From Megaustenia siamemsis (lineage: Eukaryota; Mollusca; Gastropoda; Stylommatophora; Ariophantidae): DNA of 64,000 bases. The first letter of the stretch is position 1. Every line of letters starts with the position of its first letter. Shown here piece after piece: positions 1-64,000 of the stretch. Position numbers and translations under genes: made by a program. The notes under the pieces were generated by a model. It saw only the letters and a program-made list of their open reading frames with translations, made no database searches and was not told where the DNA came from. The stretch is taken from NCBI GenBank assembly GCA_032433765.1, contig JAVIAB010000092.1, positions 34,510,034 through 34,574,033 on the forward strand, read 5' to 3'.

Positions 1-400
1 TGTACCCACTTTCCTTCCTTTCTTTCCATCTCATAACAATAGAAGTGTGATAGTGTGAAGTGGGTTTGTCAAGGAGGGAGAGTGAATCATAAAAAAACTG
101 TGTGATTTTATTCATTGTAACTAGAGTGATGAAATAGTCTCTCTCTCTCTCTCTCTTTCTCTTTCTCACTCGCTTACAAACACACCAATATATACACATC
201 TATGTTTGTATATATACAATCATCCCATCTGACATTCTAAACTTGGTTTCAGATTTTTAATTTCATTTGGACTTATTCTGTTACGAAATGTAGCTTGTTG
301 GATTAAGCCTTCCTGAATGTGAGGTTTTATATCTTTGCGTGATATTCAAACTAATTAAAACAATTTCTTGAGAATCTAATTCAATTAGAGAGACATATGA
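1..400. other. Intron segment, simple repeats only
   Basis: This is intron between X5 of a presumed preceding unit and X1. A (CT)n run lies at 138-165. I see no exon, RNA gene or recognisable element in the rest. The same sequence occurs at 32741-33124 and from 61487. Confidence 0.5.
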
Positions 401-1685
401 GCCGCGGCGGGCCCTAAGGGCATACACCCAGATACTCTTATCTTTTTCTAAATTTTCTTTTCTTCTTTAGCACGAAATTAATATTATCATTATGTTGACG
501 TAGATGATCATTTCCTTATACAATCTTCTATCCACCACATCGTATCAATTCTGTTGTTGATTGTTTTCCATGCCATGACACCAGGCTATCTAGTATGTTG
601 TACAAATATCAACAGGGCTGAAACTAAGAATGGCACAATGTTACATCTTCTCAATATTCCTGTATGGTGCAGAAACATGGACATTAGACAAGTAAACAGA
701 ACAGAAAATTGAAGCCTTTAAAATGTGGATTTATAGATGAATAGGTAGAATTGGATGGAAACAAAAGATAACAAACGATAAAGTTTTATAACAACTGAAA
801 TTAAAAAGAGAACTACTAAATACAATTAATGACAAGACAAATGAAATTTTTGGGGCATGTTAAAAGACACAACAGCCTACTAAAAGTAATATTGGAAGGA
901 AAAATACAAGGTAAAAGTGGCAGAGGCAGACCAAGACTAACATGGACGAGTAACATCGAAAGATGGCCAAGTCAATCTATGACAGCCTGCACCAACAAAG
1001 CTCGAAACAGAGCAGAATGGCGTTCCATGGTAGCCAACCTTCGTTGCGGAGAAGGCACACGATGATGATGATTAACCACGTATTAAAACTTTCCTCTTCT
1101 CATGATGTGACAGAAAAATGTTAATTGTTGCTTTCTGATGATTCTTAGGAGCTCCCTTTTTTGTGTTGGCCTCTTTGAGAGTTTCCTCGTTAGTATTTTT
1201 AGCTATCCGGGGAACTTTAACAATTCTTCTGAGAAATCCCATCTCTGTTGACTCTAATCGTCATTTCATTGTTTGTATACCGTCCATGATTCGCTTTCAT
1301 AGGTCACAATTGGCTCTATATAGCACCGATGAATTTTTCCTTCTCACTTCTATTGACATAGATTTGTTGCATAAGACGTATTTAATTTTCTGAAATGCTA
1401 AATTGGGCCTCAGTAATTCTGCTTTTTATTTCTGTGGTGCATCTTCCAACTGATGTTATTATTGCGCATAAGTATTTGACGCGTTGCACTTCTTTCAGAT
1501 TTGTCTTGTTTAGTTTTATGCTGCATGATGGGGATGATTGTTTCTTCAATATGACCATTACTTCAGTTTTCTTTCTATTCAGACTGAGACTTTTCTTGTT
1601 GCTTTCTTGTAATATTATGTCTATCATTTCTTGTAGTTTATTATATGTCTTTGCTATTAAGACTGATTAAATTAATATGTTATTA
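401..1685 (-). mobile_element. Nested LINE relics upstream of X1, unit 1
   Basis: A minus-strand non-LTR retrotransposon relic occupies about 401-601 and 1073-1685. Reverse-strand translation of 1382-1627 gives the end of a reverse transcriptase palm, with LNRKKTEVMVI and an IITSxGRCTTEIKSRI stretch. Its 3' end is the GC-rich stretch near 400-425. A second LINE fragment on the + strand (602-1072) sits inside it. That fragment encodes a typical LINE C-terminus (RQMKFLGHVKRHNSLLK, then GRGRPRLTW) and ends in an ATG repeat. Both are broken by stops and are not host genes. The + fragment has lost its left part and left target-site duplication (see 33525-34835 for the fuller copy). Confidence 0.7.
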
Positions 1686-1773
1686 ATTAATATGTCAGAA
1701 TAACATTGTATTTATCTAATTTCTCCATGCTTTCATACATATGTTAAAAGTTTTATTGATTCTTACATTGCAG

Positions 1774-1818
1774 ATAAAGAGGAATATACAGGTTTAAACA
1801 GCTCTCTATCCAAACTTA
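1774..1818 (+). CDS. Exon X1 of mucin-module gene, unit 1 (phase 1-1)
   Basis: This is a 45-bp exon candidate between acceptor ttgcag and a consensus donor gtaagt. Read with one base carried in from the previous exon it gives D then KEEYTGLNSSLSKL, with one base left over. The other two frames hit stops. It contains an NSS sequon. The exon is tiny, so the call rests on strong splice sites and on phase: X5 ends with one spare G and X2 starts with GA, so both joins are in frame (Asp and Arg codons). It encodes the middle of the non-mucin domain. Near-identity in units 2 and 3 is weak support, because the introns are equally conserved. Confidence 0.55.
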
Positions 1819-2440
1819 GTAAGTGGTTTTTTTTTAAATTTCAATTTGTAATATTACTGTAATCTTAACACTCAAAATTGCGTTTATTTTACACACAGAG
1901 ACTATGCCGTATAAATTTTAAACTATTACTAGTCGTTGTCATCTTTTATTTCTCAATAGTATTACGTGATTAAACTTGCGTTGTTTAAAAGCTTAAAAAA
2001 ATATGTATTTAATATTTAGTCTTTTTTTAATGATTGCATTCACCTTATGTTCAATATATTAACACTTAAATTACCAAAAACACATAATTAAATATTGCAT
2101 TATAATGTCAGTGTGCTACACGTAGAAAAATATAAACAAGTATTTTGTTTTCATGTGTACGTGTTCCAGTTCTCTAATAAATAAATAAGAGCGTCACCTA
2201 AATCAATATATCTCCTGGAGCAGTAAATGTGAAATAAATAAAGGTGATTTTTGTAATACCTGTAATGTCATGCAGCCAGGTTTTAGATGTTGACAATTAA
2301 GTGTGATATTTGAAATGTGTAAACTTTAAAGAAAAAAAGGAACATTAAAGAAAACAAAGCAACTAATGGATTAAACTTTACAAATACCAGTATTCTCCAC
2401 AATTATAATTTATTACTATGCATTCAATTTATTGACACAG
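1819..2440 (+). other. Intron X1-X2, unit 1
   Basis: AT-rich intron sequence with no open reading frame of note and no recognisable mobile element. The copies at 35580-36200 and 63305-63927 differ only by small indels in A/T runs. Confidence 0.5.
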
Positions 2441-2571
2441 GAAATACAACCATATATATAACCAAGAAATTTCAGAACGGTTCAAGGGAAGTATTAGTAA
2501 CCTTCACACCAAATGGGACTAAAACTGATAATAACATATTTCCAAAGGATAGCACATACTATCGCGCGGAA
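2441..2571 (+). CDS. Exon X2 of mucin-module gene, unit 1 (phase 1-0)
   Basis: The exon lies between acceptor gacacag and donor gtaagt. After completing an Arg codon with the last A of X1 it encodes 43 residues, beginning NTTIYITKKFQNGSREVLV and ending KDSTYYRAE. The alternating hydrophobic pattern (TIYIT, EVLVTF) looks like beta strands. There are three N-glycosylation sequons (NTT, NGS, NGT) and no cysteine. It ends exactly at a codon boundary, matching the phase-0 start of X3. No family was recognised. It forms the second half of the domain that separates mucin blocks, so it is expected to be extracellular. Confidence 0.68.
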
Positions 2572-3870
2572 GTAAGTATTCATTTTTTTCAAAATGTTAA
2601 ATGTATAATCGTTGCTTATCATAAGAATTTACTGTAATGCTCATGGAGCCATTTAGTACGATCGTGAAATTCACTATTATGTTTGCAGTACCTTATATAC
2701 AAAGCATACAAGCAATTGCTTTATTTGATTACATCCACCTTGCATGCATTTCACTAGGGATTTGAACAATGACATGGTAACAAATCTGAGCTATGGAATT
2801 GGCATATTCGTATTTAAGAAAATGTTAAAGATCAAATTAGCTGCTGCTGTAGTCCTGCCACGTGCTTTCTCTTAGAATTATTCTATAGTTTCTTCGCTAT
2901 AACAATCTTATGGAATATGAACAAGTAAACCATATATTAATTGAGCAGTCACCACAAGAAGCACATCTTGAAGTAGATCGATAGTAACAAATTAAAAGAC
3001 AAAAATATCAAAGGACAATTTAATCTAGAATTCAGCAAATGAAGTGAATATAGGCGAACTATGAAATATTCACAACACACTGCAATGTTGATATCAGCTG
3101 AATTAAGTGATCGATTTAAGGAAACTGAAAAAAAAGCATGGATCTCAGACATCATTTGGAGACATCTAAAATAGACGTGAAGCCACGCTAGCCTTGTTAA
3201 ATGAGTTAGGTAAAATCCTAGGCAAAGCAGCATATAAAGACCTTGATAATAAGTTAAAAACTCAGCAAGATGTGATAAAAGCACACATATAGATAACCTG
3301 GCATTTGAAGCAGAAATAGCATCCAGAACTGGAAACAGGTATTATATTATATATACATAAATAACTAACAGGCTCCTTCACACCAAACGACGGACATGTT
3401 CTGCGTAAAGATGACACCTTATTATAGTTCGGTCCGAAATTTGTGCCAATAGAGTTTATTAACTATCTCGGAAACTGTTTTATGAATTTCAGTAATTATT
3501 TTTCATTAAATCTTATTTTTTCATCGACCTTAAGTCCGATTTTTTCCCCTACTGTCATGCATTTAGAAAATATTTTTATTTCTTTGAGGTATATAAAAAT
3601 ATGATTTTCTTGGTTGTCATAATGTTTAGAAGTATACAATACATACATTTGTTGTAATCAGATCATCGTTTAAAAGAAGCAACTTGTTTCACGTGTTCTC
3701 CGCACAATCTTAGCACCATCTCGCACGTACTGAACCGTAAATTGTAAGTCGCGCCATTGAGAAATTTATTTTGTCATTTCCGATTTCTTGTTAAATAGGT
3801 TCAGAGGCGTATTTTGACAAGCTATTTATTATTAATGTATATTCTCTTATATGTGATAATGTGTATGCTA
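2572..3870 (+). other. Intron X2-X3 first part, unit 1
   Basis: No exon is seen here. Positions 2940-3330 contain short decayed reading frames on the + strand (AMLISAELSDRF, KAWISDIIW) that resemble the linker region of LINE polyproteins. I could not confirm this. The rest is unassigned AT-rich sequence. Confidence 0.4.
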
Positions 3871-5224
3871 TAGTGAAGTGACTACTTGCTTTTTAAAATC
3901 ATGAAGTGTTTAAAGTGTAAATTCATCACTATGCAAAAGATAAATGTTTTATTGTACAGACACTTTTGCAAGGGATCTAAAAGAGGTCGGTTATATTACG
4001 ATATTAAAATAAAACAGAAAAAAAACAACAAGAACAGCTCTAAATATAGATAGAAAGTCTTTAAATGGATGGTTAGGACAGAACTTTGAATCTGCAGAGG
4101 CGACGGTCAAGCAAGGGAGAAAAATGAAAGTTGATGTTTTTGACAAAGATGTTATTAGACGTGAGATTTTGAACATTTTTGAATCGAATCAGCTTGTTAC
4201 ACTGCGCAAACTTAAAGTTCGACTGCAATTAGAATATTATACTGAACTATCAAAAACGACTCTGTGGAAGATCGTAAGAGGCGTTGGTTTAACTTTTCCG
4301 AAATCTACTAGTGGTAGAACTATTGTTTTTTTTTAAAACCACACTTGATTACTGTCCGAAGCAAATAATTGAGGCAGATCAGTGAGCGACGAATGGAAGG
4401 CTAAGATATAGTGAATTTGGATGAAACATGGATCAATGCTCTTCATACATATGAAAAAGAATGGCAATCAGTTGACAGAGAAAATAAAAGAAGCATTCCA
4501 AGCAGCAAAGGACAACGCAATATATTAGTACATGCTGGTAGTATAAAGAATGGACTTCTTAATGACGCACAACTTATTTTTTCAATCAAAGTCTACAGAT
4601 GGTATGAACTACCATACTGAAAAGAATGGACGAATTTTCATAGACTGGATAGAGAACACTCTACTCCCCATTCTGGATTGACCTTCATGCCTTGTAATGA
4701 ACAATGCATCCTATCATAATGCGGTAGCACTGGAGAACAAAGATCTTAATTCGTCAAGCACAAAAGATCAAATCAGCACATGGCTTAGAAAAGATTTTTT
4801 TCCTTTCACACCATCCAGTAAAAACTAGAGTTATTGCAACTTGTTAGACAGACTAAGAAGACAACGTTATATCAAATTGATAAAAAAATTGCAAATTAGG
4901 GCCACACATCTCTTTGCCTCCCACCTTATCATTCGGACCCCAACCAAATAGAACTTGTGTGGGCTAAAGTCAAAGGCCAAGTTGCTGCGCAGAACACGAC
5001 GTTTAAAATGGGTTCTGTTAAAGAATTGACGCGAATGCCTTCTCAACGATAGACATTGAGTACTTGAGAAAATGTGACGACCATGTGCTCAGAGAAGAGG
5101 AACAATACTGACGACGAGATGGATTGCAGTTTGCCCAACCGATAACAATTGTTAACCTCTTAGAGACTTTTCTGATTCTGAATGAGGTATGTCGGACATG
5201 AACACAATTTTTTGTTGATGGCAC
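3871..5224 (+). mobile_element. Dead mariner/IS630-like transposase, unit 1
   Basis: Three remnants of a DDE transposase lie in order. A helix-turn-helix-like N-terminus runs about 3901-4336 (SKTTLWKIVRGVGL). The first catalytic block NLDETW is at 4411-4431. A second block at 4694-4726 reads VMNNASYHNAV, where Asn replaces the usual Asp. A third block from 4918 reads LPPYHSDPNQIELVW and keeps the Glu. Frameshifts and stops separate these blocks, for example an extra A near 4019 and the stop after 4333, so the element is inactive. I could not define the terminal inverted repeats. The family assignment rests on the LPPYHxDxNxIExxW signature. Confidence 0.72.
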
Positions 5225-6187
5225 ACTTACTATTTGATGACTATGTGAGTTTGCAGTTCTGGTCGTTCCATATATTTTGTTGATGACACGACTTATAATT
5301 GGCGACTATGTGTGTTTGATACCTTGGTCAAAGTTTACATATCTCTATGACAAGGATAAAAATCAAATGAAAAATTGTGCCCTCTTCAAAGTGGTAAGGA
5401 TACGCCTTTGACATGCATTTTTAGAAAACCAAAGTAATTTAAAGTCACATCACAAGTCAGATGTTTCTTTATTTGTTTTCAATATAATTGTTCTTATGCA
5501 ATCTGTAATTTCTCCTTTAGTACGTTCTAATAGCACATATAAATGTTTATTAGTATCTTAGATTATTTTAAATGAAGAAAACAATCAGCCAGCTAACATC
5601 TTCAATTGTATTATTTACAAAAGTATACTCTTGCTGACCAAGGAATAAAAATTAAAATGCCACTGACATGACTCACGTCGGACAGGCCTTGTTAAGACCA
5701 TTATACAGGGCACAGTAATATGGTAAAGAAAACAAGACAGAGCGAGAAAGCGGCTGGATGACAAAATCAAATAAAAAGATAAGATTAGCATCGACAAGCG
5801 TTCCCCATTGACTACCATTGTTACTGGAATAATACTGATGAAGATACTTTTGTCGTTGAATCTATAAAAGTACTGATTTTACATTTATGTTTAAATAATC
5901 AATTCGTGCTGTTAATTTAGAATAGGGATGTTTGAATTATCTACAAAAGATGGATATGAAAAGTGAAAATTGTAGTTAAATTTGTTCTTATGAAAGTTGA
6001 TGGACTGATTTTCTTAAACATCTATTTTTGTAATAGGTGTTATTGTCGTGTAACTTTTAAATTGTAATTGCAATATTATTAAAATGTTGCAATTTTGTTG
6101 TAGATACTTAAATCGCTGCTTCACTATTTTGTATCCCCTTTGTGATATTTTATTTTCTACTTCCATACCATAAATTTTCTTTTACAG
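5225..6187 (+). other. Intron X2-X3 last part, unit 1
   Basis: This is unassigned AT-rich intron. No exon or mobile element is recognised. Part of it, up to 6070, is absent from unit 2 because of the deletion described separately. Confidence 0.4.
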
Positions 6188-6284
6188 AAATTCCCAACAG
6201 GAAGTGATATTAGAACAGATACGGTATCTACTATGCGCTTACTAGTAAATAACAACGCAACAGCTTCTTATAAGTCATGCTCAG
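6188..6284 (+). CDS. Exon X3 of mucin-module gene, unit 1 (phase 0-1)
   Basis: The acceptor is ttttacag and the donor is g|gtagaa, which is weaker than consensus. The exon encodes 32 residues from KFPTGSDIRTDTVSTMRLLV to a closing YKSCS, with one spare G. The single cysteine near the end pairs in number with the single cysteine at the start of X4. In the assembled order X4-X5-X1-X2-X3 these two cysteines bracket 155 residues, so a closing disulphide is plausible. One sequon (NAT) is present. The spare G joins AA at the start of the first mucin exon to make a Glu codon. Confidence 0.65.
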
Positions 6285-6915
6285 GTAGAAATATGCCGTA
6301 TTGTTCAATTTTTGTGGTTAATAAATAACGGTGGCTTGTTAAATGTGCCTGGTTATTCTATATTGTGGTCTTAAATATAAAAAAATAACTACATACACAG
6401 GTTCCACACTAAAAATAATAGCATTTACGTAACGATAGAAGTCCATATTATGCGAAAGTATCTAACATGGTGTCTATTACTAGGGATTATAATGTAAGAT
6501 AATGTATGTGATGTAGAGTAGAAATGTTAAACATATAAAGAAGATATCTTAGTCATGTTCACACAATTATTTATAAAGCTGAAAAAAATGTATGTAGTAA
6601 GAACCTTAACATATCGCTCTTGAAATGGTAAATGAATCAAGCAGAAAGTTTGAGTCTTCCCACTAAAAGACCTCAGATGTGAAGTTTTGACATTAATTAC
6701 CTTAGCTATTAACGCATTGTAAAAGATATAAATGAAAATAACAGAAATGATTGCTTTTATGTCTATTATAAAGTGACATTTGATGTACGTCTACAAGAAA
6801 ATGTTTGTTTTATTTGACATTAGTAAATAAAACTAAAATTCTCATTTGTCTAGTAAAAAATATTCTATTAACAGAGCCAACAAGAAGGTGGCAGACAAAA
6901 AATTACGGAATTAAT
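6285..6915 (+). other. Intron X3-mucin, with a possible relic acceptor near 6872
   Basis: Mostly unassigned AT-rich sequence. The end (6846-6895) resembles the acceptor and first bases of mucin exon E1: a tctaataaaaa-like lead, a pyrimidine-poor cag, then agCCAACA. It may be the start of a decayed mucin exon whose repeats were lost. There is no usable coding repeat after it. Confidence 0.35.
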
Positions 6916-6923
6916 TTACATTT

Positions 6924-7188
6924 CGAAAAAAAAGAAAGAAAGAAGAAAGAAAGAAAAAAAGAAGAAAGAAAGAAAGAAAGAAAGAAAAAAAGAAAGGAAG
7001 AAAAAAGAAAGAAAGAAAGAAAGAAAGAATGAAGAAAGAAAGAAAGAAAGAAAGAAAAAAAAAAAAAAAAAAATGAAAGAAAAAAGAAAAGAAAGAAAGA
7101 AAAAAAGAAAGAAAGAAAGAATGAGAGAAAGAAAGAAAGAAAGAAAGAAAAAAAGAAAAAAAAGAAAAAAGAAAGAAAGAAAAAAAAA

Positions 7189-7224
<36 letters not shown>

Positions 7225-7258
7225 AGAGAAGAAAGAAAGAAAGAAAAAGAAAAAAAAA
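6924..7258 (+). repeat. (GAAA)n polypurine tract, unit 1
   Basis: About 335 bp of almost pure purine on the + strand, mainly GAAA with interspersed GAA and A runs and very few pyrimidines. Lys/Arg/Glu-only or Phe/Ser/Leu-only reading frames here are composition artefacts. The copy in unit 2 differs in length and in internal order. Confidence 0.9.
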
Positions 7259-7344
7259 ACATGACAGAAATCTTACGGACTGCAAGATAATAAGCTATGC
7301 TATATTTTTTAAATTAGAAAAAACAGATATTGATGGAGCATAAA

Positions 7345-8430
7345 TATTTATTCATTGAGTGCCATCACCGCATCGAAGGTTGGCTACTATGGACGCCACT
7401 CCGATCTGTCTCTTGCTTAGATGGTGCAGGTTGTCATATGCTGTCTTAACCATCTTTTGATGTTACTCGTCCTCGCTAGTTTTGGTCTGCCTCCGCCTCC
7501 ATTATCCTGTATTTTCCCTTCTAATATTACATTTACTAGGCTTTTGTGTCTTTTAACGTGCCCCAAAAAGTGTAATTTTCTTGTTCTAATTGTGTTTAGC
7601 AGTTCTTTTCTAATTTTTGGTTGTTTAAAAACGTCATCATTTATTCTCTTTTCTTTCTATCCAATTTTGCCAATTCTTAAATAAATCCTGGGAGTCGCGG
7701 TGGTTAGTGAACTGAACTACAAGAGCTAGGGTTCTATCCAAACAGACGGCTTCCGGGTTCACCCAGCCTTAAATGGATACAGGATTTTTTTTCTGGGAAA
7801 GTAAAGCGGCGCGGGCGTAGTACCGACCACATTACCCCAAAAATTATGTGCTGAAGGTCTGTAAAATATATGGTCACTAACACCATATTCCCTATACGCC
7901 ACTTGGCGCGACGGGGGTGCTTTACTATTTTACTTTCATAAATCCACATTTCAAAAGCTTTAATTTTCTGTTCTGTTTTCTTGTCTAATGTCCATATATC
8001 TGCACCACACAGGATTATTGAGACATTTTTAACATTCTTAGTTTTAGCCCTTTAGTTATTTGTTTTGATGTTAGTATACTTTTCATGGCATTAAAATTTC
8101 TTTTTGCCATTCCTATTCTTTTGTTTATTTTAGTTTTACATTTTCGATCACTGGTTATAGTATGTCCAAGATAGTTATAGCTCTGAACTGTATCCAGGTC
8201 TATTCCTTCAACTTTATATTCACTTGTAGGTTTTGAGTATTATCCTTGCTAATGATCATAGTTTTAGTCTTTTTGGTACTCATATCTAATCCATATTTTT
8301 TGCTTATCATGTTTATTTCATTAAATAATTGTTGTAGAATGTTAGGATTTTCTGCTAGTATTACAGTATCACCAGCACAGCTTATGTAGGTTATTGATTA
8401 TTTTCTAGCATAAGTATATCTCTATATTAT
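7345..8430 (-). mobile_element. LINE relic split by a SINE, unit 1
   Basis: Reverse-strand translation gives a decayed non-LTR reverse transcriptase: YAGDTVILAENP near the right end (the usual YADD with Asp to Gly), then KKYGLDM, YNYLGHTITSD, KIKAFEMWIY and a GRPKL-like C-terminus near 7480. It is truncated at its 5' side near 8400. A SINE at 7689-7937 interrupts it inside the codons for the MWIY stretch. It lies in the intron just before the first mucin exon. Confidence 0.78.
7689..7937 (+). mobile_element. tRNA-derived SINE inserted in the LINE, unit 1
   Basis: A 249-bp insert is flanked by an 8-bp target-site duplication ATAAATCC (7681-7688 and 7938-7945). The uninterrupted LINE reading frame across the site is restored if the insert and one duplicate are ignored. 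The head GGGAGTCGCGGTGGTTAGTG, with GGTTCTATCC about 30 bp later, resembles the A and B boxes of a tRNA promoter. Confidence 0.75.
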
Positions 8431-8563
8431 TTCTTTTCTAAAAACCTAATTCTAATGATTGTATACCTTCTAGAACATGTTTTTTTCATTTTTTTTTTTT
8501 TGCCTTTCGTAAAAATAGTTAGGTAAAACTCCTTTCTGTCTAATAAAAACATTTTGTTCACAG

Positions 8564-9843
8564 AACCAACAGCAACCCCAAGCACAATAACGCCAGGTTC
8601 AACAACCTCAAGCACATCAACAACCCCAAGCCCATCAACTACCCCAAGTTCAACAACATCAAGCACATCAACAACCTCAGGTTCAACAACCCCAAGCCCA
8701 TCAACTACCCCAAGTTCAACAACCTCAAGCACATCAACAACACCAGGTTCAACAACCTCAAGCTCATCAACAACAACAAGTTCAACAACCTCAAGCTCCT
8801 CAACAACAGCAGGTGCAACAACATCAAGCACGTCAACAACACCAGGTTCAACAACACTAATCACGTCAACAACACCAGAATCAACAACATCAAGCACATC
8901 AACAACACCAGGATCAACAACTCCAGGATCAACAACTTCAGGCACATCAACAACCCCAGGTTCAACAACATCAAGCGTATCAACAACACCAGGTTCGACA
9001 ACCCGAAGCACATCAACAAGTTCAACAACCTCAAGTTCCTCAACAACAACGCTATCAACAACCCCAAGCACATCAACAACACCAGGATCAACAACCTCAA
9101 GCACATCAACAATCTCAGGTTCAACAACCTCTAGCACATCAACAACACCAGGATCAACAACAACAAGCACATCAACAACACAAGGTTCAACAACCTCAAG
9201 CTCATCAACAACACCAGGATCAATAACCTCAAGCACAGCAACAACACCAGGTTCAACAACCTCAAGCACATCAACAACACCAGCTTTAACAACCTCAAGC
9301 ACAGCAACAACACGCGGTTTAATAACCTCAATCACATCAACAACAGCAGGATCAATAACCTCAAGATCATCAACAACCTCAGGTTCAACAACCCCAAGCA
9401 CATCAACAATCTCAGGTTCAACAACCTTTAGCACATCAACAACACCAGGTTTAACAACCTCAATCACATCAACAACACCAGGTTTAACAACCTCAAGCAC
9501 AGCAACAACACCAAGATCAACAACATCACGGAGCTCAACTGAGACACCAAGCACATATGAAACCCCAAGCACACCAGAAACCCAAGCTTTCCAGAGGCTC
9601 CAAGCTCAACTGAAGTCCCAAGCACACCAGAAACACCAAGTACACCTGAATCTCCAAGCACACCTATAACTCCAAGCTCACCTCAAGTGCCCAGTACGCC
9701 AAAAACACCCAGCACTCCACGTACTCCTAGCACAAAAACAACCCCCAGCACAACAACCCTAAGCGTAACAACCGCCCCTGGCACAACATCAACAACCCTA
9801 GGAACATCATCAACCGTCAGCACATCAACAACCCCAGGCTCAG
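8564..9843 (+). CDS. Mucin exon E1, unit 1, with a one-base frameshift
   Basis: Acceptor ttcacag, donor g|gtaata. The exon opens [15 protein letters not shown] and runs in 11-residue PTS repeats of the type [11 protein letters not shown], which are expected to be densely O-glycosylated and extended. Several repeats are shortened ([12 protein letters not shown]). Near 9581 one C is missing from a CCCC run that all other copies keep. The frame then leaves the Pro/Glu-rich tail and stops near 9669. Restoring the length would make the exon 1281 bp, a multiple of three. It also carries an extra ACA codon near 9785. Because the exon is phase 1-1, skipping it would keep the gene in frame. The missing C could also be an assembly error. 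Confidence 0.62.
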
Positions 9844-12127
9844 GTAATATTGGTAGCACGCTTATAGTTGTTTACTCATTCAGCCCTTTGTGACTGTCAC
9901 TAATGTAGTATCACATAGATAAAGAATAGGTACACAAATGTGAAGTGAGGTTGTGGATAAATTTAGGGATCATTTTTCCAAGTACTTTGTACCTACTTCA
10001 GTGTTGTTTTTTTTTAAATTTCTTTTCTCATGCTATGTATCGAAAAAGAGAATGAGATTTTAACTTGGGGGGCTGATTGGTCTCGAGGCAAGTCGCTGGT
10101 CTCGGGACAAAGAGGTTAAAAGTTGAAATCCCGATTTCACCAGTTTGGATTGTTGTTTGTGATTTCTCTCTGCGGCAACTACCCCTGGTCTCAGCAGCGA
10201 GGTCAGACTTTAAACGTTAATTACTCAACGACGGAAAAAGTATGATTACCTCAGAAGACTGCGTTAATTTGCCTAAACGGCGAGGGAAGCCTGTACACAC
10301 GACTGGCAGGGAAAATATGGTTTAACACGCAAAATTCAGTTCCTTGTATCTTGGGACCTCACAAAAGGTTAAAACTGACGAATGCAAAAAAGACGACAAA
10401 TTAATGCCTACCTCATTTGCTTTTTCGCAATCGAGGTGAGATAATAATTTGTGGTCTTTTCCTCTTCTGTGGACCTCTGCTAAGTCTAGTTGTTCATAGA
10501 GTATATCACTTGGTATGCAGCCACTATTTTAAGTGACCAAACCACTAATCTACGTTGATGAGCAGTGTGTAGATATTCGGGAGTCCTGTGAGAGTCATGG
10601 CAATCACTTTTGTCACGTTGTCCATCCAACTGATAGCTAGAATACAGCGCAGACATTACGCATGGAATGCATTTTGCCTTCTCTCCTGCTTTGCATAAGC
10701 TATCCATGATTCGCTGCCACACAGAAGGATACTAATGATGCAGGCATTGTAAACTGCGGCCTTTGTCAGTTTGCTGTTTTGCCAAAAATAGCCTAGAAAG
10801 TCGGTCGAAGGTGGTTGCAGCTTTAGCAATGCTAGTGTCAATTTTTGTGTTTAAAGATAGTTTGTCGTTGATGATGGACCCGCGGTCGTTTATGTCGTGT
10901 AAATTGTCAAATAGGCCAGCTTGCATGTTGCGCACATACCTGCAACCCAATCGTAGGTTACAATTTGTTATTGTTGATTTCTCTTGCATGGCGGGCGTGG
11001 AATGCAACAGTCTGCTATTCGAATTTTTCCTTATCCTCATACACCAAATCGGGAAAGCAGACCTTGGCGAGACTGTAGTTGCTAGGGACTGCCCATCTTT
11101 AGAGGGCGGTAGCAATCCAGGAAGTCGATATACTTTTCCCAACGTCGAAAGCAGCCCCTGGCGTCATGCCCTGCACTCAATTTGCATATTGACATATAGC
11201 GGTTGGCTACTGCTTCCCGTGTTGTGTTAACATCAAATGATGAAGCTGGAGTGTCCTCTCCAGGGCGTGACCTTGAGCAGCTAAAGAAAGAATTAAATTG
11301 TTACCCTTGCAACATGTTTCTTGTCTCCACGCAGCCGACAGATCTAACAGTGGAAGAACAGTCTGGTGCCAAATGCGTCCCATGAATTGTCTGTACAACG
11401 TTTAAATCAATACTGAACCGCCATAGGGACTCTATCTCCGTATTCTCCATCAGGGTTTACTACCGAAGTCTATTGCATGAACGGGTAATCCTGCTGGACA
11501 GTAGGAATTAATAATCGGAGTCGACTTTCTCAAAGTTCCGATTTTTATACTAAAGGCTAGCATCTATTCGAGGACGAGGTTATGGCGCCACCGACTCGAC
11601 GGTGACAACGGCATAGGTCATTTAATTGATTTGATAGAATTGGCTCCCCCCACGCAACTAATTCACCTCACCCTCTGTAATCAGCAATTAACGTAGTTCT
11701 GAAGTACGCTGTTTTTATGCTCTGTTCACAGCACACCTCTGTATCTAGACGCTGGCGATATTCTGAAAATATATCTTCTCTTCCGGGTTTGTCATACAAT
11801 TACTCTTTGTATTGTAAATCTTAAAAAAAGGGATGGTCGGGACAGATTTATTGTGTAACTAATTCAAGACGAATTATGTTATCTGCACTTTTCAGCGCGA
11901 TATCTATTTTCAGGTGGTAGAAAATGGAATTTAAAATGTGTAAAATATGACTATAGAGAATAAAGTACGGAGTTTTAAAATGTAGTTAACATTTTTTAAA
12001 AAAATTTAATATCAATATATAAATATTTGAAAATATTTTGTGCTTAGTGTTGTTGTTCAATCAATCTGCTAAAGACAGCTTGTTAGAACACACATTTAAC
12101 TTCCTAATAAGAATATTTTCTTGACAG
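9844..12127 (+). repeat. Inter-mucin intron, copy 1 (SINE plus LINE relic)
   Basis: This 2284-bp intron is homologous to four others in the window. A SINE-like element starts near 10066 (GGGGGGCTGATTGGTCTCGAG) and runs to about 10320. From about 10440 to 11400 a minus-strand LINE relic encodes degenerate reverse transcriptase end sequence: IDTSIAKAATTFDRL, AVYNACIISILLCGSESW and YAKQERRQ. The last 600 bp hold a TA-rich segment before the next acceptor. Short + strand ORFs, such as one at 10763-11230, are antisense shadows of the LINE. Confidence 0.75.
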
Positions 12128-54146: not shown

Positions 54147-54477
54147 TAAAAGGTGTCGTGATTTATATCATTTGTCGTTCTTGTGCTGCTCGAATTGTCT
54201 GAATTAGTGATTTTCCTTTGTTGTTACATGTCTCTGTCACTGCATCTATCCATCTTCTTCTGGGTCTTCCTCTTGGTCTTTTCCCATGCATTCTCGAGAA
54301 GAACGCCCTTGATGGTGATTGGTGAGGATTCATTCTGACCAGGTGGCCGAACCATTTAAGTTGTTGTTGTTCTATATATTCTAGGCAGGGTTTTGTTGCT
54401 ACCATTTTTCTTATGGTTTCATTTGGTATTCTATCTCTTCTTGTGTTGTTTGTTACTTTGAGAGGAATACTTACTGA
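54147..54477 (-). mobile_element. LINE C-terminal relic next to X4, unit 2
   Basis: Counterpart of 25340-25670. One replacement in the encoded tail (RKMVA for RKMVG). Confidence 0.78.
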
Positions 54478-54515
54478 GAGGAATATGAACATTAATTTGC
54501 AATCTTTTATTACAG

Positions 54516-54679
54516 CTCCTCCCACACCCTGTGCGGAATATGAAAAGAATCACATCGTCGAGCATACAAAACCCGTGTCACCATCAACACTTAATTTAGT
54601 TGAAATAGAAACAACAAATGATACTTCAGTCAAAGTTGATAATGGTACTGCATGGGAACTTGTACCTTTTAATAAGACA
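54516..54679 (+). CDS. Exon X4, unit 2 (phase 1-0)
   Basis: Same 164 bp, splice sites and 55 residues as 25709-25872. It follows mucin exon EC, whose spare G completes the first Ala codon, and is followed by X5 at 60898. Together with X1-X3 of unit 3 it would form the next folded domain. Confidence 0.7.
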
Positions 54680-55069
54680 GTAAGTTTTTTTTGTACATGC
54701 ATGAACTTAAAGTATATATGTGTGTGTATGTGAATTATACACTTTGTTAGTGTTGTCAAATTCGCGCACTCACTCACGTATCTAATCACTCACTCACTCA
54801 CTAATTCACTATTTGATACTAATAAATATATGTGATCAGAATATGAGAATAGTTCTTAGTATTTAATAGAACTATATCAAGTGAAACGAAACCTAACAAT
54901 ATTATAATATAACCATTACTTTTGTTTTATTACCATTCAAACTAAGACTTTTCTTGTTGATTTCTTTTACTATAAAGTCTATCATTTTAATATTTATTAG
55001 TCTTATTATTACTTTTATTATCTATCCCTTATTGACATCTCACTATTTTCTCAGTCTCAGGGGTGCCTG

Positions 55070-55102
<33 letters not shown>

Positions 55103-55790
55103 TCTCATTAGTAAAACTTCTTGAATTAAATTTAATATAATTTTATACTAAATATTCATCCTTTCGAAAGTTCACAAATGTAATTGACAATAGTTTTTAT
55201 TCCCAGTGTCCCTTTGTGACAGTCACTAGCTAATTTACTTCTTGATGTATATCTTCCTATTACTTTATATTCACCTGTCCATAATATCTGTACTTTGAGT
55301 TATATGTCAAACTGTCTGCCTGGTCTAGCAATGATCTGGCTATTCTTAGATAGGCCCAACGTGAAACGATGAGATGCGTGAACAAATTCACATACTAATT
55401 TTTGTTTATTCTAAATTATCATAGAGAGGTTTAGGTAATTACACATTGGCTTTTCGATAACTCCAGAAAATCTTCTGATCAAGCCCTTCTCAAGGTTTCA
55501 TCCAAAATCTGTTTGCTAAAAATGTCAATTCTTCTAAAATTAAAAGCGCATGGCTAAATTTTGCTAGGTAACAGCCTTCTTTGACATTTCGAACTATGGG
55601 TTATGATTCCATTGTACTTGCCCTAAATTTAACATAATTCTACCTTTTTTTGTGCGACAATGAGTGCTCACATGCCAACATTGAAAAAATGTATTCACTG
55701 GATCTATCTTTCATGATGCAATCGATATTCCTCAATCTAGAGTCTTATACTGTTATATATGTGTATATATATACATATATGTAAAATCAG
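54680..55790 (+). other. Intron X4-X5 first part, unit 2
   Basis: Counterpart of 25873-26990. Simple repeats include CT at about 55071-55106. Confidence 0.4.
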
Positions 55791-56575
55791 CATAATCATT
55801 GAGTGCCTTTCCGCAACGGAAACCATGGAGCGCCATTATACTCTGTCTCTTGCTTTGATGGCGCAGGTTGTCATAGGCTGATTTGTCTATCATTTGATAT
55901 TACTCGTCCATGTTAGTCTTGGTCTGCTGTGCCTCTTTTACCTTTTATTTTGCCCACCAGGATTACTTTTAGTAGGCTGTTGTGTCTTTTAACATGGCCC
56001 AAAAATCGCATTTGCCTTGTTTGAATTGTGCTTAGTAGTTCTCTTTTCATTTTTAGTTGTTTTAAGACTTCATCGTTTGTTTTCTTTTCCTTCCATCCAA
56101 TTCTACCTATTCTTATATATATCCACATTTCATAGGCTTCAATTCTCTGGTCTGTTTTCTTCTCTAATGTCCATGTTTCTGCACCATAAAGGAATATTGA
56201 GAAGATGTAACATGTTGCTATTCTTAGTTTTAGCCCTGGTGTTATTTGTTTTGATGTTAGTATGTTCTTCATGACATTAAAATTACTTTTTCCCATTCCT
56301 AATCTTTTGTTTATATCAGTTTTGCATTTCCCATCACTGGTTATAGTATGTCCAAGGTAGTTGTAGTTCTGAACTGTCTCCAGGTCTATTCCTTCAATTT
56401 TGATATCCACTTGTAGATTTTGAGTATTTTCTTGGTTTATGTCCATAGTTTTAGTCTTTTTGATATTCATATCTAGTCCATAGTTTTTGCTTGTCATGTT
56501 TATTTCATTAAGTAATTGTTGTAGATCTTTAGGATTTTCGTCTAGTAGTACAGTATCGTCAGCATATCTTAGGTA
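55791..56575 (-). mobile_element. LINE reverse transcriptase relic, uninterrupted, unit 2
   Basis: The reverse strand from about 56575 to 55913 is one open frame from [18 protein letters not shown] through NYNYLGHTITSDGKCK and FLYGAETWTLEKK to FLGHVKRHNSLLK, then breaks at KGKRGTADQD. It is the pre-insertion form of the element at 26991-28135. Its 5' end merges with a TA repeat. Confidence 0.86.
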
Positions 56576-56612
56576 TATGTAAAATACATATACATATATA
56601 ATATCCATCTAC

Positions 56613-56614
<2 letters not shown>

Positions 56615-56672
<58 letters not shown>

Positions 56673-56707
56673 ACATGTATATATGTATAAATGTATATAT
56701 GTATAAA

Positions 56708-56772
<65 letters not shown>
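56615..56772. repeat. (TA)n microsatellite, unit 2
   Basis: Longer version of 28180-28317. Confidence 0.9.
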
Positions 56773-56774
<2 letters not shown>

Positions 56775-57895
56775 AATATCTCAAGCTCGAGAGTAAGGTT
56801 ATATGATGAAACTACCAAAGGTAGGATCTACTATGTACAACACTACACTGAAATTATGCTGTAATCAGTGCCAGAAAAATGCTAAGCAAATTCATTATGG
56901 ATAGACTAAATGGGGCGGCAGTGAAACATTTGAGAGATGAATAATCAGATTTTAGGAAAAACAGATCTTGCACCGATCAAACACTTCCCTTACGTAAAGG
57001 TAAGGTAAAGTACGAGACATGAACCGGCGTCTTAGCACGCGAGTTTACACCCATATATGCTCGGCCGCCTATCCAGAAATGTTCGGATATTTCTGTATAG
57101 TGTAGCCTCAAGCATCGAAACTCAGATGCGAAGCGACATTCCTCACCTTCCCAGGATAATACCCTGGTACCCATTTCTGCCAACGGCTGGGTCGACCGTG
57201 GGGTAATTTTTTTTTTTAATTTCCAACCACGAGTACAATTCACACTGCTCCCAGCGGGAATCGAACACGGGTTGTCCGAACCTCGGTAGTCTAGTCGGGT
57301 GGTTTTCCCAACTAGGCTACCGAGGCCCCTTCCCTTACGTATAATAGTTGAACGTTTCCCCACTTTATATCGGATTAATAGATTATGAAAAGACATTTGA
57401 TAGTTTTGGAATAGGAATACTTTGGACGTTGCTAAGTTATTATACCTGCAAAGTCTATTAACCTGATAAAAACAATGTATGATAGAATGCAATTCAGTGA
57501 TTTACATGAAGTATAGCTTACATAAGCATTTGAAATAAGAACAGTAAGGACGGAATGTCTTCTATCTCTATTTATCTTTATTTCTGATGAGCATCGATTG
57601 GTTTATGACAATAATAGAGAGCAACAGAAATGGAATCCACGGATCAATGATCAGGCAATTTGATGACCTAGGCTTGCTAATGACAAAGCTCTCCAAGGCT
57701 GCTGTAAAGGTGATGATGAATGTGAAAAGAAGGCGGCAAGTTATGCTTACAGTTTTATGTAAGTAAAGTAGAAGACAATCGAACAACGTTTTGACTCAAT
57801 AGACTTTCAGATGGAACTGTGGACAACACATACTCACACGGATATAACAGCAGATGAAAGAAACTCTCTATTGTAAAATATATATTAAAAAAAAG
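56773..57895 (+). mobile_element. Decayed LINE reverse transcriptase, interrupted by a SINE, unit 2
   Basis: Counterpart of 28318-29080. The relic resumes directly after the SINE insertion at 57329. Confidence 0.65.
56997..57328 (-). mobile_element. 332-bp tRNA-derived SINE, insertion private to unit 2
   Basis: Flanked by a perfect 13-bp duplication CTTCCCTTACGTA (56984-56996 and 57329-57341). Unit 1 has the single site at 28529-28541. Read on the minus strand from 57328 the head contains TAGCCTAGTTGGG (A-box-like) and GTGTTCGATTCCCGC (B-box-like), so it carries an internal RNA polymerase III promoter. It ends in repeated TTTACC/TTACC steps at 56997-57010. Confidence 0.92.
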
Positions 57896-58228
57896 ACAAT
57901 ACTATTAAAAATTAGTATTAAAAAAAAGAGACTTCTCTTCAGCGCTTGCTTGTGACTGGGTAATAACGAAATGAGCCTGTAAGTCAAGTGGTCACGAGGG
58001 AAATGAGCCTGACTAGGAATGGATGAGCGAACACGCTGCTGGAATGCTGGTCCGCATGTACAGAAAAGAAAGGATGTCATAGCAGTGTCTACAATAATTT
58101 CCCGGTTGTGGGATATGTTGCAATGGATCTAAGATGACAAGTAGACAGTATGCAGTGTTTTTGTTCTTTTTTATTATAAGTGATATAGCAGCCCTGTATT
58201 ACATTAAAGTCAGACGACACTATTTTAA
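57896..58228 (+). other. Intron segment, unit 2
   Basis: Counterpart of 29081-29495 with a 64-bp deletion at about 58137. Nothing recognised. Confidence 0.4.
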
Positions 58229-58450
58229 TTGTATCTTGTCACATATTCGTGCTCTGGAAGTCCTCTCAATATCGGCAAGAGAGCAAATGCCAGCTGTTTT
58301 TGCCTCTCGCCTATGTGCTCATTTGAGAGTTTTTCTAGGTCTGCCTCTTTTACCTGCAGGTTTCCATATGATGGTTTGCTTTCATATTCTCTTGTTGTCT
58401 CTTCTCATCACATGACCAACAAACGCCCACCTTCTTTTTTTGAAAGATAA
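58229..58450 (-). mobile_element. Short LINE C-terminal relic, unit 2
   Basis: Counterpart of 29496-29715. Confidence 0.6.
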
Positions 58451-59189
58451 ATGATATTTTTGTATGCTTTGTCGTTTCTCTCACTTTTTAACACTTGAAT
58501 TCATTCCATGGCATGCGAAGTGTTTTCCTGACGCATTTATCTTCAATTTATGTTTTATTTCTTTCATTGGTTTCTAGCTCTCACTTGCAAAAGTAAGGGT
58601 GGATAACATCCATTACTCTTCAGTATACTGTGCTGCAATCGCGGAACAATACTCACAAAGAAAGTAATACAAATCGCAATATTGTCTTTACTTAAATTGT
58701 TCATCTGTTGAAACTTCACGGAAGAGACATTGCAAAAGATTAAATCAAATCTTTCGAAGAATTGGCATCTTCCAAGATATGTAACAATTTTGTTTTATTT
58801 CTGTGATGCCTTTCCATTGCAATGCATTCATTCTTTCATTACTGAACGAGGCCTACTATTTAAAATGTAAAAACTTGTAATTGCTTTTTGTAATAAGCTG
58901 CAAAAAATAAATTTTAGTAAAGTAGCCAGAATAGAACAGAAAAATGCAAACAAATATTTTCAAGCACTAGATGAGCCCAAGTGAGTGTGATAAAGAAACA
59001 TAGTGAAGAGCAAAACATGTCTGTAAATATACAGTACAATTAAAATAGTGTCCACCGACAATAAATATATGGTTGTAATTCATGGACAATCTCACTAACA
59101 ATGAAGAAAAATGGTTCATCCGATACAACATTCTATAGAAAAATCATTACGATCCCTTGGATAATGTAATTCTTGGTCGTTTTGTGCAG
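58451..59189 (+). other. Intron segment before the EGF-like relic, unit 2
   Basis: Counterpart of 29716-30453. Nothing recognised. Confidence 0.4.
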
Positions 59190-59714
59190 TGTGTAGTGGG
59201 TGTAGCAAAGGCGGCAACGTCATCAACGGTACCTGTCACGGCAAATGTTCACATGGGATCTATGGACACGACTGCTCCAGGTCTTGTCTCAGTGTATGTC
59301 CTTTATGTGAGTAAAAGTCCGGGAAATGCCTACAATGTAAACATCCTGGCTATACCTGTAATGACACTTGTCCCGATGGTAATTTTGGGCTACAGTGCGA
59401 ACAGACGTGTTCTGATGGTTGTGACATCATATGTGACCCGGAAAGTGGTAACTGTATGTGCAAGGAAACGTACTACGGATCAGACTGCACTCTCAAATAT
59501 CCGGACAACTGGTTCAATGACACCTGTGAACAGTCAACCGAGAACTGTACATGCAAGAGAACGTTCTGTGGGTCATACTGCACTCTCAAATCTCCGGACA
59601 ACTGTTTAACGAACCTGTGAACAGATAATCGGGGCCTGCGACTCGTATGTCGATGATTCTCACGTTAAGAAGAGTCTACCGACTACAACAAACCCAAGCA
59701 TATGGATACCTTAA
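59190..59714 (+). pseudogene. Decayed EGF-like exon, unit 2
   Basis: Same relic as 30454-30977, but the start is in frame (CSGCSKGGNVINGTC), so only the shared in-frame TAA (about 59308) and the later one-base loss near 59605 disable it. The shared lesions predate the module duplication, and the unit 1 start frameshift came after. Confidence 0.72.
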
Positions 59715-59719
59715 TGTGT

Positions 59720-60195
59720 TTCTGTGCTAGACATGATTCATTTCTTGGTGTTTTTCCGCGAAACCATGGCTCATATCTTAATGTGTTTCTGTGCTAGCCA
59801 TGGATCATATCTTGGTGTGTTTCTGTGCTATCAATGGCTCATATCCTAGCTTGTGTGTGTGTGCTGGCCATGGCTCATATCTTGGTGTGTTCGTGTTAAT
59901 CATGTCTCATATCTTTATGTGTGTATGTGTTTAGTCATATCTCATATCTTAGTGTGTATCTGTGTTAGTCATGTGTCATGTATTTGTGTGTGCATGTCTG
60001 GGTTAGTGATATCTCATACCTTTGTGTGCATGTCTATGTTAGTCATATCTGATATCTTTCTGTGCATGCATATGTTAGGCATGTGTCATATCTTAGTGCG
60101 TGCCTGTCTATGTCAGTCATATCTCGTATCGTTGTGTGCATGTCTGTGTTAGTCACATCACATATCTTTGAGTGGGCATGTCTGTGTTAGTCACC
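59720..60195 (+). repeat. 34-38-bp minisatellite, unit 2
   Basis: Same copy order and drift as 30985-31458. Confidence 0.82.
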
Positions 60196-60527
60196 TCTAG
60201 TGACTCGGGTATATGGTGCTCGTAAATCTGGGAGGGCCGACCATCTAAGGGCAGAATCCCCCTACAGAAAAGACAATCTGCTGCCTTGCAGGAAGATTGG
60301 GGACAATCAAAGGCTAAGGAAAGCAAACCTGAATAAAATGCTGGCTGAAATCGGATGCACTGGGCCACTGGCGCAGAACACAGTGCAACGTTTTAACGGG
60401 TGTTCAATCAGAGTGGATGTGGTAGACTCTAATTGTGATGTTATGCTTGTGGGGGCGATCAATACACTTAACCTGACTGCTGACGTAATGTGAGAGTCTG
60501 GAATCCTACTCAGATTGAGCCCTGATC

Positions 60528-60575
<48 letters not shown>
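60196..60575 (+). repeat. Unclassified repeat-like segment ending in (GA)n, unit 2
   Basis: Counterpart of 31459-31830. The GA run at 60531-60573 is longer. Confidence 0.4.
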
Positions 60576-60576
<1 letters not shown>

Positions 60577-60897
60577 TAATGTAAAAGAGAAATAAAGACG
60601 AGACAGAGGCAGACCAAGAAGAAGTTGTTTTTTCAAGACATCAATGAAATCTTCATATGTCAACAATAGAAGTGAAAGAACTGGCTAGAGGTAGTGAAGA
60701 TTGATATATTGTGCCTACTCTCACCTGGATTATCCCATTACTCAAAGCAGTTACCAAATATGTGGTCATAAGAAAATGTGGCACTATGTTTGAATGCATT
60801 AAATATTGATATATTACAATGATTTTACTAACATGCTAGAAATTATTCTTGCTTTGAAAAATAAAATGCATAATGTATATGATCATTGCTATTTCAG
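60576..60897 (+). other. Intron end before X5, unit 2
   Basis: Counterpart of 31831-32151. Nothing firm recognised. Confidence 0.35.
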
Positions 60898-60943
60898 GCG
60901 TTGACTAGCACTGAACGAATTGTGGCTGTTAGATTTATAGCTG
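60898..60943 (+). CDS. Exon X5, unit 2 (phase 0-1)
   Basis: Same 46 bp as 32152-32197. Its spare G joins X1 of unit 3 at 63260, repeating the cross-unit join seen between units 1 and 2 and giving two independent instances of the same in-frame connection. Confidence 0.55.
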
Positions 60944-61486
60944 GTATGTACACACGATTTTACTCTCTTTTTTACAAATCACCAAATAGACAAATTGAAA
61001 ATAAAAACATTTTTCAGTATAACAGTTCTTTTAATGAAAGTAAATAATGTGTTTGGTAGTTTTACTGGATGAGATGTTTGTGGAAAGCGCTTGAAGTAGC
61101 TTCAGATAAGAAAGAGATTGAACATTGAATCACTCTTGCAAACTACACCAAAATATAAAATGGTACACTCACCTGAAAAGAATGCTAAGAGATTCTATAG
61201 CATAGAAAACATGTACTGCAAGATGAGATGGAAGAAGTGCACTTGGGAGACTCAGAGTAAGATGAAATCTCAACATCCGAGAAACACTACCACGACATCA
61301 ATCGACAATAGTTGAGGCTGCCAGGAGAGCAGAAACTAAAACTGTGTAAATACATTTAACACCCGAAAGTGTATAAGAATAGATGCTGTGCAAATTGATT
61401 CCGTAATTTGAAAATAATTTTTAATGTAATAAATAATTCTTCAACTATGGTATATTTACAGATAATAGATTGTTGGTTCTTACTGA
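60944..61486 (+). other. Intron after X5, unit 2
   Basis: Counterpart of 32198-32740. Nothing recognised. Confidence 0.4.
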
Positions 61487-61866
61487 TGTACCCACTTTCC
61501 TTCCTTTCTTTCCATCTCATAACAATAGAAGTGTGATAGTGTGAAGTGGGTTTGTCAAGGAGGGAGAGTGAATCATAAAAAAACTGTGTGATTTTATTCA
61601 TTGTAACTAGAGTGATGAAATAGTCTCTCTCTCTCTCTCTCTTTCTCTTTCTCACTCGCTTACAAACACACCAATATATACACATCTATGTTTGTATATA
61701 TACAATCATCCCATCTGACATTCTAAACTTGGTTTCAGATTTTTAATTTCATTTGGACTTATTCTGTTACGAAATGTAGCTTGTTGGATTAAGCCTTCCT
61801 GAATGTGAGGTTTTATATCTTTGCGTGATATTCAAACTAATTAAAACAATTTCTTGAGAATCTAAT

Positions 61867-63165
61867 TCAATTAGAGAGACATATGAGCCGCGGCGGGCCC
61901 TAAGGGCATACACCCAGATACTCTTATCTTTTTCTAAATTTTCTTTTCTTCTTTAGCACGAAATTAATATTATCATTATGTTGACGTAGATGATCATTTC
62001 CTTATACAATCTTCTATCCACCACATCGTATCAATTCTGTTGTTGATTGTTTTCCATGCCATGACACCAGGCTATCTAGTATGTTGTACAAATATCAACA
62101 GGGCTGAAACTAAGAATGGCACAATGTTACATCTTCTCAATATTCCTGTATGGTGCAGAAACATGGACATTAGACAAGAAAACAGAACAGAAAATTGAAG
62201 CCTTTAAAATGTGGATTTATAGATGAATAGGTAGAATTGGATGGAAACAAAAGATAACAAACGATAAAGTTTTATAACAACTGAAATTAAAAAGAGAACT
62301 ACTAAATACAATTAATGACAAGACAAATGAAATTTTTGGGGCATGTTAAAAGACACAACAGCCTACTAAAAGTAATATTGGAAGGAAAAATACAAGGTAA
62401 AAGTGGCAGAGGCAGACCAAGACTAACATGGACGAGTAACATCGAAAGATGGCCAAGTCAATCTATGACAGCCTGCACCAACAAAGCTCGAAACAGAGCA
62501 GAATGGCGTTCCATGGTAGCCAACCTTCGTTGCGGAGAAGGCACACGATGATGATGATTAACCACGTATTAAAACTTTCCTCTTCTCATGATGTGACAGA
62601 AAAATGTTAATTGTTGCTTTCTGATGATTCTTAGGAGCTCCCTTTTTTGTGTTGGCCTCTTTGAGAGTTTCCTCGTTAGTATTTTTAGCTATCCGGGGAA
62701 CTTTAACAATTCTTCTGAGAAATCCCATCTCTGTTGACTCTAATCGTCATTTCATTGTTTGTATACCGTCCATGATTCGCTTTCATAGGTCACAATTGGC
62801 TCTATATAGCACCGATGAATTTTTCCTTCTCACTTCTATTGACATAGATTTGTTGCATAAGACGTATTTAATTTTCTGAAATGCTAAATTGGGCCTCAGT
62901 AATTCTGCTTTTTATTTCTGTGGTGCATCTTCCATCTGATGTTATTATTGCGCATAAGTATTTGACGCGTTGCACTTCTTTCAGATTTGTCTTGTTTAGT
63001 TTTATGCTGCATGATGGGGATGATTGTTTCTTCAATATGACCATTACTTCAGTTTTCTTTCTATTCAGACTGAGACTTTTCTTGTTGCTTTCTTGTAATA
63101 TTATGTCTATCATTTCTTGTAGTTTATTATATGTCTTTGCTATTAAGACTGATTAAATTAATATG
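61867..63165 (-). mobile_element. Nested LINE relics, unit 3
   Basis: Counterpart of 401-1685: minus-strand LINE at about 61887-62087 and 62559-63165, and the truncated + strand LINE at 62088-62558. The deletion junction is the same as in unit 1. Confidence 0.7.
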
Positions 63166-63259
63166 TTATTAATTAATATGTCAGAATAACATTGTATTTA
63201 TCTAATTTCTCCATGCTTTCATACATATGTTAAAAGTTTTATTGATTCTTACATTGCAG

Positions 63260-63304
63260 ATAAAGAGGAATATACAGGTTTAAACAGCTCTCTATCCAAA
63301 CTTA
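63260..63304 (+). CDS. Exon X1, unit 3 (phase 1-1)
   Basis: Same 45 bp and splice signals as in units 1 and 2 (ttgcag, gtaagt). It would continue the domain begun in X4 and X5 of unit 2. Confidence 0.55.
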
Positions 63305-63927
63305 GTAAGTGGTTTTTTTTTTAAATTTCAATTTGTAATATTACTGTAATCTTAACACTCAAAATTGCGTTTATTTTATACACAGAGACTATGCCGTATA
63401 AATTTTAAACTATTACTAGTCGTTGTCATCTTTTATTTCTCAATAGTATTACGTGATTAAACTTGCGTTGTTTAAAAGCTTAAAAAAATATGTATTTAAT
63501 ATTTAGTCTTTTTTTAATGATTGCATTCACCTTATGTTCAATATATTAACACTTAAATTACCAAAAACACATAATTAAATATTGCATTATAATGTCAGTG
63601 TGCTACACGTAGAAAAATATAAACAAGTATTTTGTTTTCATGTGTACGTGTTCCAGTTCTCTAATAAATAAATAAGAGCGTCACCTAAATCAATATATCT
63701 CCTGGAGCAGTAAATGTGAAATAAATAAAGGTGATTTTTGTAATACCTGTAATGTCATGCAGCCAGGTTTTAGATGTTGACAATTAAGTGTGATATTTGA
63801 AATGTGTAAACTTTAAAGAAAAAAAGGAACATTAAAGAAAACAAAGCAACTAATGGATTAAACTTTACAAATACCAGTATTCTCCACAATTATAATTTAT
63901 TACTATGCATTCAATTTATTGACACAG

Positions 63928-64000
63928 GAAATACAACCATATATATAACCAAGAAATTTCAGAACGGTTCAAGGGAAGTATTAGTAACCTTCACACCAAA
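63928..64000 (+). CDS. Exon X2, unit 3, cut by the window end
   Basis: The first 73 bp of X2 after acceptor gacacag, reading NTTIYITKKFQNGSREVLV and onward to the window edge. This shows that the module series continues beyond the window. Confidence 0.62.

Follow-up and report, generated by a model that had tools for sequence, protein, structure and literature searches.

We analysed a window of 64,000 nucleotides from the gastropod Megaustenia siamemsis (Stylommatophora, Ariophantidae; assembly GCA_032433765.1, contig JAVIAB010000092.1, positions 34,510,034 to 34,574,033 of the forward strand). The window holds seven long Thr/Ser-rich mucin-type exons, set in modules that follow one another in tandem, and is probably an internal stretch of a very large tandem-module mucin-type gene. 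Self-comparison revealed three firm tandem scales within it, namely a 33-bp unit, a block of one mucin exon plus one intron, and a multi-exon module. The 33-bp unit comprises 11 Thr/Ser-rich codons and forms arrays, detected with Tandem Repeats Finder (TRF), in all seven mucin exons; 372 in-frame units were extracted, of which 137 are distinct. Five of the seven exons also carry an 18-bp Pro-rich repeat close to their 3' ends. The exon-intron block measures 4.3 kb in module 1, where 8617-18144 matches itself at an offset of 4332 (95.9% identity across 9566 columns), and in module 2 one exon-intron pair, at a short exon, has a spacing of 2916 bp (2.9 kb). The first module period measures 33,763 bp and the second 27,723 bp, after which a third copy begins; the point at which the period is divided into modules is arbitrary. 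The original prediction of repeats of 33 bp, about 4.3 kb and 29-33 kb was thus borne out, and its proposal that the nested tandem duplications carried introns and mobile-element fragments along is supported. The modules, as delimited by self-comparison, and a stretch of module 1 without counterpart in module 2 are:

1..601, forward strand: tail of module 0, running straight into position 602, lacking both the 899-bp stretch and the microsatellite that module 1 has
602..34364, forward strand: module 1, 33,763 bp
34365..62087, forward strand: module 2, 27,723 bp
62088..64000, forward strand: start of module 3, cut by the end of the window
4564..6064, forward strand: 1501 bp of module 1, absent from module 2 at 38322/38324

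Outside the mucin blocks, collinear stretches of modules 1 and 2 are 99.25-100% identical; a collinear stretch of lower identity (6065-9528, 97.5%) holds an AAAG-type simple repeat and part of the first mucin exon. An intron stretch of approximately 0.8 kb with AT-type microsatellites (27723-28528 vs 56528-57328) is not collinear between the two modules. Open reading frame (ORF) fragments with a weak, below-cut-off transposase match lie at 4013-4617, and the 1501 bp missing from module 2 begin within them.

The mucin exons are:

8564..9843, forward strand: U1E1, 1280 bp, with a 'first'-type 5' end and a missing base near 9.59 kb
12128..14149, forward strand: U1E2, 2022 bp, open
16436..18457, forward strand: U1E3, 2022 bp, open
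20749..22964, forward strand: U1E4, 2216 bp, with a 'last'-type 3' end and a missing base near 21.2 kb
40808..43354, forward strand: U2E1, 2547 bp, open, with a U1E1-type 5' part and a later-exon-type body
45644..46269, forward strand: U2E2, 626 bp, one base short near the 3' end
48560..51733, forward strand: U2E3, 3174 bp, open, 'last'-type 3' end

At the 5' end, first exons are of one type and all later exons of another; at the 3' end, the last exons likewise differ in type from the earlier ones. The order is first, two middle and last in module 1 and first, one middle and last in module 2. Acceptor and donor contexts are common to all seven exons and fit phase 1; where an exon is frameshifted, its donor phase was read in the frame downstream of the shift. 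Three of the four open exons encode 41-42% Thr, 30-32% Ser and 6-9% Pro. Such long, repeated Pro/Thr/Ser-rich (PTS) domains characterise mucins in the broad sense, and the product would be an O-glycosylated secreted or surface mucin. An antisense ORF-like stretch (10735-11163, reverse strand) in one mucin intron has a counterpart in each of the other four; the one that was scanned gave no Pfam match.

The PTS frame and the predicted spacer exons

No stop was found among the 4531 codons examined in the PTS frame, a count that left out the parts of U1E1 and U2E2 downstream of their frameshifts, vs 152 and 44 stops in the other two forward frames. Among the 137 distinct repeat variants, stop-ward changes in the PTS frame numbered 5 of 534 against an expectation of approximately 3.3%, and they were not depleted in the other frames (60, with about 9.9% expected; 8, with about 0.9% expected). 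Long ORFs alone were rejected as coding evidence, since the arrays are also almost open in one antisense frame (4 stops). An antisense frame (48531-51788, reverse strand) stays open for 1086 codons through the array, a by-product of repeat composition.

Between the mucin exons of successive modules, four short exons per module were predicted from splice sites and phase only:

2441..2571, forward strand: ID, phase 1 to 0, module 1
6188..6284, forward strand: KFP, phase 0 to 1, module 1
25709..25872, forward strand: APP, phase 1 to 0, module 1
32152..32197, forward strand: ALT, phase 0 to 1, module 1
36201..36331, forward strand: ID, module 2, identical to the module 1 copy
38447..38543, forward strand: KFP, module 2, identical to the module 1 copy
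54516..54679, forward strand: APP, module 2, identical to the module 1 copy
60898..60943, forward strand: ALT, module 2, identical to the module 1 copy

In the order APP, ALT, ID and KFP, the predicted exons measure 164, 46, 131 and 97 bp with phases 1-0, 0-1, 1-0 and 0-1; they would connect the final mucin exon of a module with the initial mucin exon of the following one. Their sum of 438 bp is a multiple of three (146 codons), so the module closes in frame. The encoded spacer crosses the module join because the ID exon falls after the chosen cut of the period. All four exons are identical in both full copies. The summed splice score of the chain, 19.8, was reached by no chain of this phase pattern in 60 order-3 Markov simulations of the region (best 18.8); a strict splice threshold retained one short exon only. 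Protein searches with the spacer gave no match among 319 and 1918 scored candidates, and no Pfam family was found at E up to 10, with a scanner that drops most matches above approximately 0.1. As the spacer matched nothing, the short exons remain predictions. A possible resemblance to IgGFc-binding (FCGBP-like) proteins was not confirmed by any Pfam or protein match, which leaves room for a very diverged relative.

Two regions were scanned with Pfam as translations with stops written as X. In 23000-34364 (three forward frames) and 1-8500 (two of three), reverse transcriptase was the family found above the Pfam cut-off, with one weak match far below it, and ten selected pieces gave no match above the curated cut-off. 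The VWD, C8 and cystine-knot domains of gel-forming mucins were not seen in these same scans and pieces, module 2 and the gene ends lying outside them. A reverse-transcriptase fragment at 33724-34404 has a strong Pfam match; it is intronic and was carried along with the module duplication. Two further intronic fragments lie at 27111-27734 (reverse strand, weak Pfam match) and 55916-56608 (reverse strand, putative, seen as an ORF only). Among the 120 listed of 2260 matches in a reverse-transcriptase search, 12 of the 14 entries that named an organism were molluscs (45-49% identity); the best of the 120, which is not among these 14, reached 68%. The search served only to judge the taxon, and points to a probable mollusc. 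The APP-ALT intron also contains an EGF-like cysteine-rich stretch (30461-30880, copy at approximately 59.2-59.6 kb), which was rejected as a module exon on account of an in-frame TAA, present in both copies, a one-base difference between the copies and a score below the cut-off; it is probably a decayed domain.

Recombinant-looking junctions in the 33-bp arrays

Two mucin exons, U2E1 and U2E2, appear to be recombinant; their junctions lie within the 33-bp array or at its margin. U2E1 is U1E1-like through offset 688 (its first 689 bases, with one mismatch and one 3-bp gap), and its offsets 658-1272 match U1E2 with no mismatch, 14 x 33 bp out of register. The alignments overlap in a stretch that matches both parental types:

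41466..41496, forward strand: U2E1 junction stretch, 31 bp

Both sides of this junction are in the same frame. Such a pattern looks like the trace that would be left if a first-exon array and a later-exon array had exchanged sequence, with one exon-intron block lost and the frame kept. U2E2 is a later-type start joined in frame within offsets 24-31 (8 bp) to a copy of the 3' part of U2E1, with which it is identical at 562 of 562 compared bases.

Further traces were found in module 1 and in the introns. Of the 2022 bases of U1E2 and U1E3, 2 are different, and the introns after them diverge by 0.57%; since the exons are closer than the following introns, the exon tract appears to be the product of very recent copying or homogenisation. 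U1E2 was also compared in 20 windows of 99 bp, of which three are nearer to last-type exons (two of them at the 5' end), seven at the 3' end are nearer to first-type exons and ten are equal. The five mucin introns diverge by 0.57-1.45% in all ten pairs, and the 17 sites at which they split two vs three fall in blocks, the last four being adjacent bases beside a homopolymer. This divergence and the blocked sites fit exchange or conversion between and within modules. Given the two recombinant-looking exons, the 33-bp repeat is a likely substrate for larger rearrangements. The unequal crossing-over that had been proposed is supported by the junctions in the arrays, while its direction is suggested by parsimony.

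Possible module pairing and competing explanations

A fourth scale, a pair of modules of 61.5 kb, had also been proposed. All that the window can show of it is the match of 1-2513 with 61487-64000, which are 99.84% identical. Two features set module 1 apart from modules 0 and 2:

33124..33250, forward strand: CA/AT/AG microsatellite found in module 1 and lacking at the corresponding site of modules 0 and 2
33466..34364, forward strand: 899 bp of a reverse-transcriptase ORF, in module 1 only; modules 0 and 2 lack them with identical end points

The 899-bp difference was read as a deletion in modules 0 and 2 because the ORF continues past 34364. The next 1.9 kb are available in three copies: 3 substitutions separate those at the starts of modules 1 and 3, and the module 2 copy differs from them by 9 and 8. 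The 99.84% match, the deletion and microsatellite state common to modules 0 and 2 and these substitution counts support an alternation of modules, over only 2.5 kb of overlap, where alleles or a looped assembly would look alike.

We consider it unlikely that the genome holds fewer modules and that two haplotypes, or one repeat traversed twice, were set in tandem by the assembly. The identity of the modules and that of the window ends are within reach of allelic differences, and the one-base gaps suggest an imperfect consensus. Nevertheless, the modules differ in exon number (4 vs 3), in array lengths and by the 1501-bp and 899-bp indels, no unique flank separates them, and the predicted exon phases loop across the joins. 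The divergence seen in every pair of mucin introns also speaks for distinct copies, although alleles placed in tandem are still compatible with all of these observations.

Several points weigh against the main interpretation of the window. Compared with sibling copies, a single base is missing from each of three mucin exons out of seven, leaving lengths of 2 modulo 3; each deficit adjoins a short run of C, and one-base gaps are similar in exons (3 in 13.9 kb) and in the five mucin introns (4 single-copy gaps in 11.4 kb). Consensus error and recent decay both fit these deficits. The proposal that every duplicated piece is of phase 1-1 holds for the splice sites of all seven mucin exons and for the sum of the short exons, and its corollary, growth without breaking the frame, fails in the sequence as assembled. 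Replacement changes in the arrays are barely below expectation (67.8% vs 68.7%). With regard to the spacer, an alternative first-exon candidate (28582-28631) outscored APP in the real sequence, zero differences in 438 bp are only mildly surprising at approximately 0.5% divergence, and the 146 residues had no match in Pfam, PDB sequences or protein searches. No start exon, stop exon or untranslated region was recognised in the window, none having been specifically sought. Finally, the body of U2E1 is common to U1E2 and, at first, U2E3, and the direction of its exchange rests on parsimony, because U2E1 alone has this body behind a first-type start; in U1E2, and for the initial part of the body in U2E3 too, the start is of the later type.

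The frameshifts, together with the about equal frequency of one-base gaps in introns, could also mean that the modules were multiplied and the protein is no longer made. Such a decaying pseudogene array seems improbable to us, given the lack of stops in the PTS codons examined and the splice sites and short exons that are unchanged between copies; moreover, skipping an exon of phase 1-1 would preserve the frame. A series of separate tandem genes, each made of one module, is more doubtful still: tandem mucin gene families exist, e.g. spiggin from MUC19 (PMC4989455, as excerpted), but the predicted phase chain crosses the module join, linking ALT to the ID exon of the following module, and neither a start nor a stop exon came to light, albeit without a dedicated search for first and last exons.

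Proposed growth of the gene and its precedents

We therefore return to a very large mucin-type gene of tandem modules as the probable explanation. The repeats and phases expected of a multi-exon intragenic tandem duplication are present, with three of the seven mucin exons frameshifted. If transcribed as predicted, each module would encode three or four long PTS blocks, one per exon, followed by the 146-residue spacer over four short exons. Non-allelic exchange would find its homology in the 33-bp arrays. Where the arrays of adjacent mucin exons take part, an exon would be gained or lost with its intron and chimeric exons would arise in frame, because each repeat spans 11 codons and the adjoining introns are of phase 1. 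Larger exchanges at the locus may have duplicated whole modules. Going further, we tentatively suggest that one in-frame 33-bp minisatellite may drive growth at every larger scale, in-register exchanges between the arrays of separate exons adding or dropping blocks and then modules, and that the modules have possibly begun to pair into a 61.5-kb higher-order repeat, in the manner of a satellite, inside a coding gene.

Multi-exon repeats within one gene are not without precedent, as excerpts of the articles cited here describe. MUC16 (CA125) has at least 60 repeats of 156 residues, five exons each (PMC3431878), and resembles the present gene as a mucin with multi-exon repeats; its unit, however, is listed at 1.9 kb with a SEA domain, whereas the modules here span 28-34 kb with three or four minisatellite exons and a predicted spacer in which no Pfam family, and hence no SEA domain per module, was found. 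In canonical mucins (MUC1, MUC4, MUC12 and others) the repeats lie in one large exon (preprint PMC13345508); they share a coding variable number tandem repeat (VNTR) of changing length, but in the present gene the VNTR exon recurs in tandem together with its intron, and this block is multiplied again as part of a module. The same preprint reports a frame-breaking indel in MUC19 of CHM13. In the giant nebulin gene, a 10-kb region of eight exons occurs three times, in highly similar and copy-number variable form (PMC9109913), its unit being eight ordinary muscle-protein exons and not mucin VNTR exons. CR1 contains repeats within repeats, with seven short consensus repeats (SCRs) per long homologous repeat (LHR) and allotypes of four or five LHRs (PMC7487969); its smallest unit, in contrast, is a protein domain and not a minisatellite, and it is not a mucin. 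As far as these excerpts go, the claimed novelty thus narrows to the nesting: VNTR exons lie in exon-intron blocks and these in modules, and the smallest repeat contains apparent recombination junctions. Searches of the open-licence articles of PubMed Central (PMC) listed no description of this gene.

In genes of this kind, strong length variation between individuals is expected and mis-assembly is easy. The readable junctions suggest how a coding minisatellite can enlarge a gene by exons and modules while the frame is kept. Pairing and homogenisation of the type known from satellite arrays become a testable question inside a coding gene.

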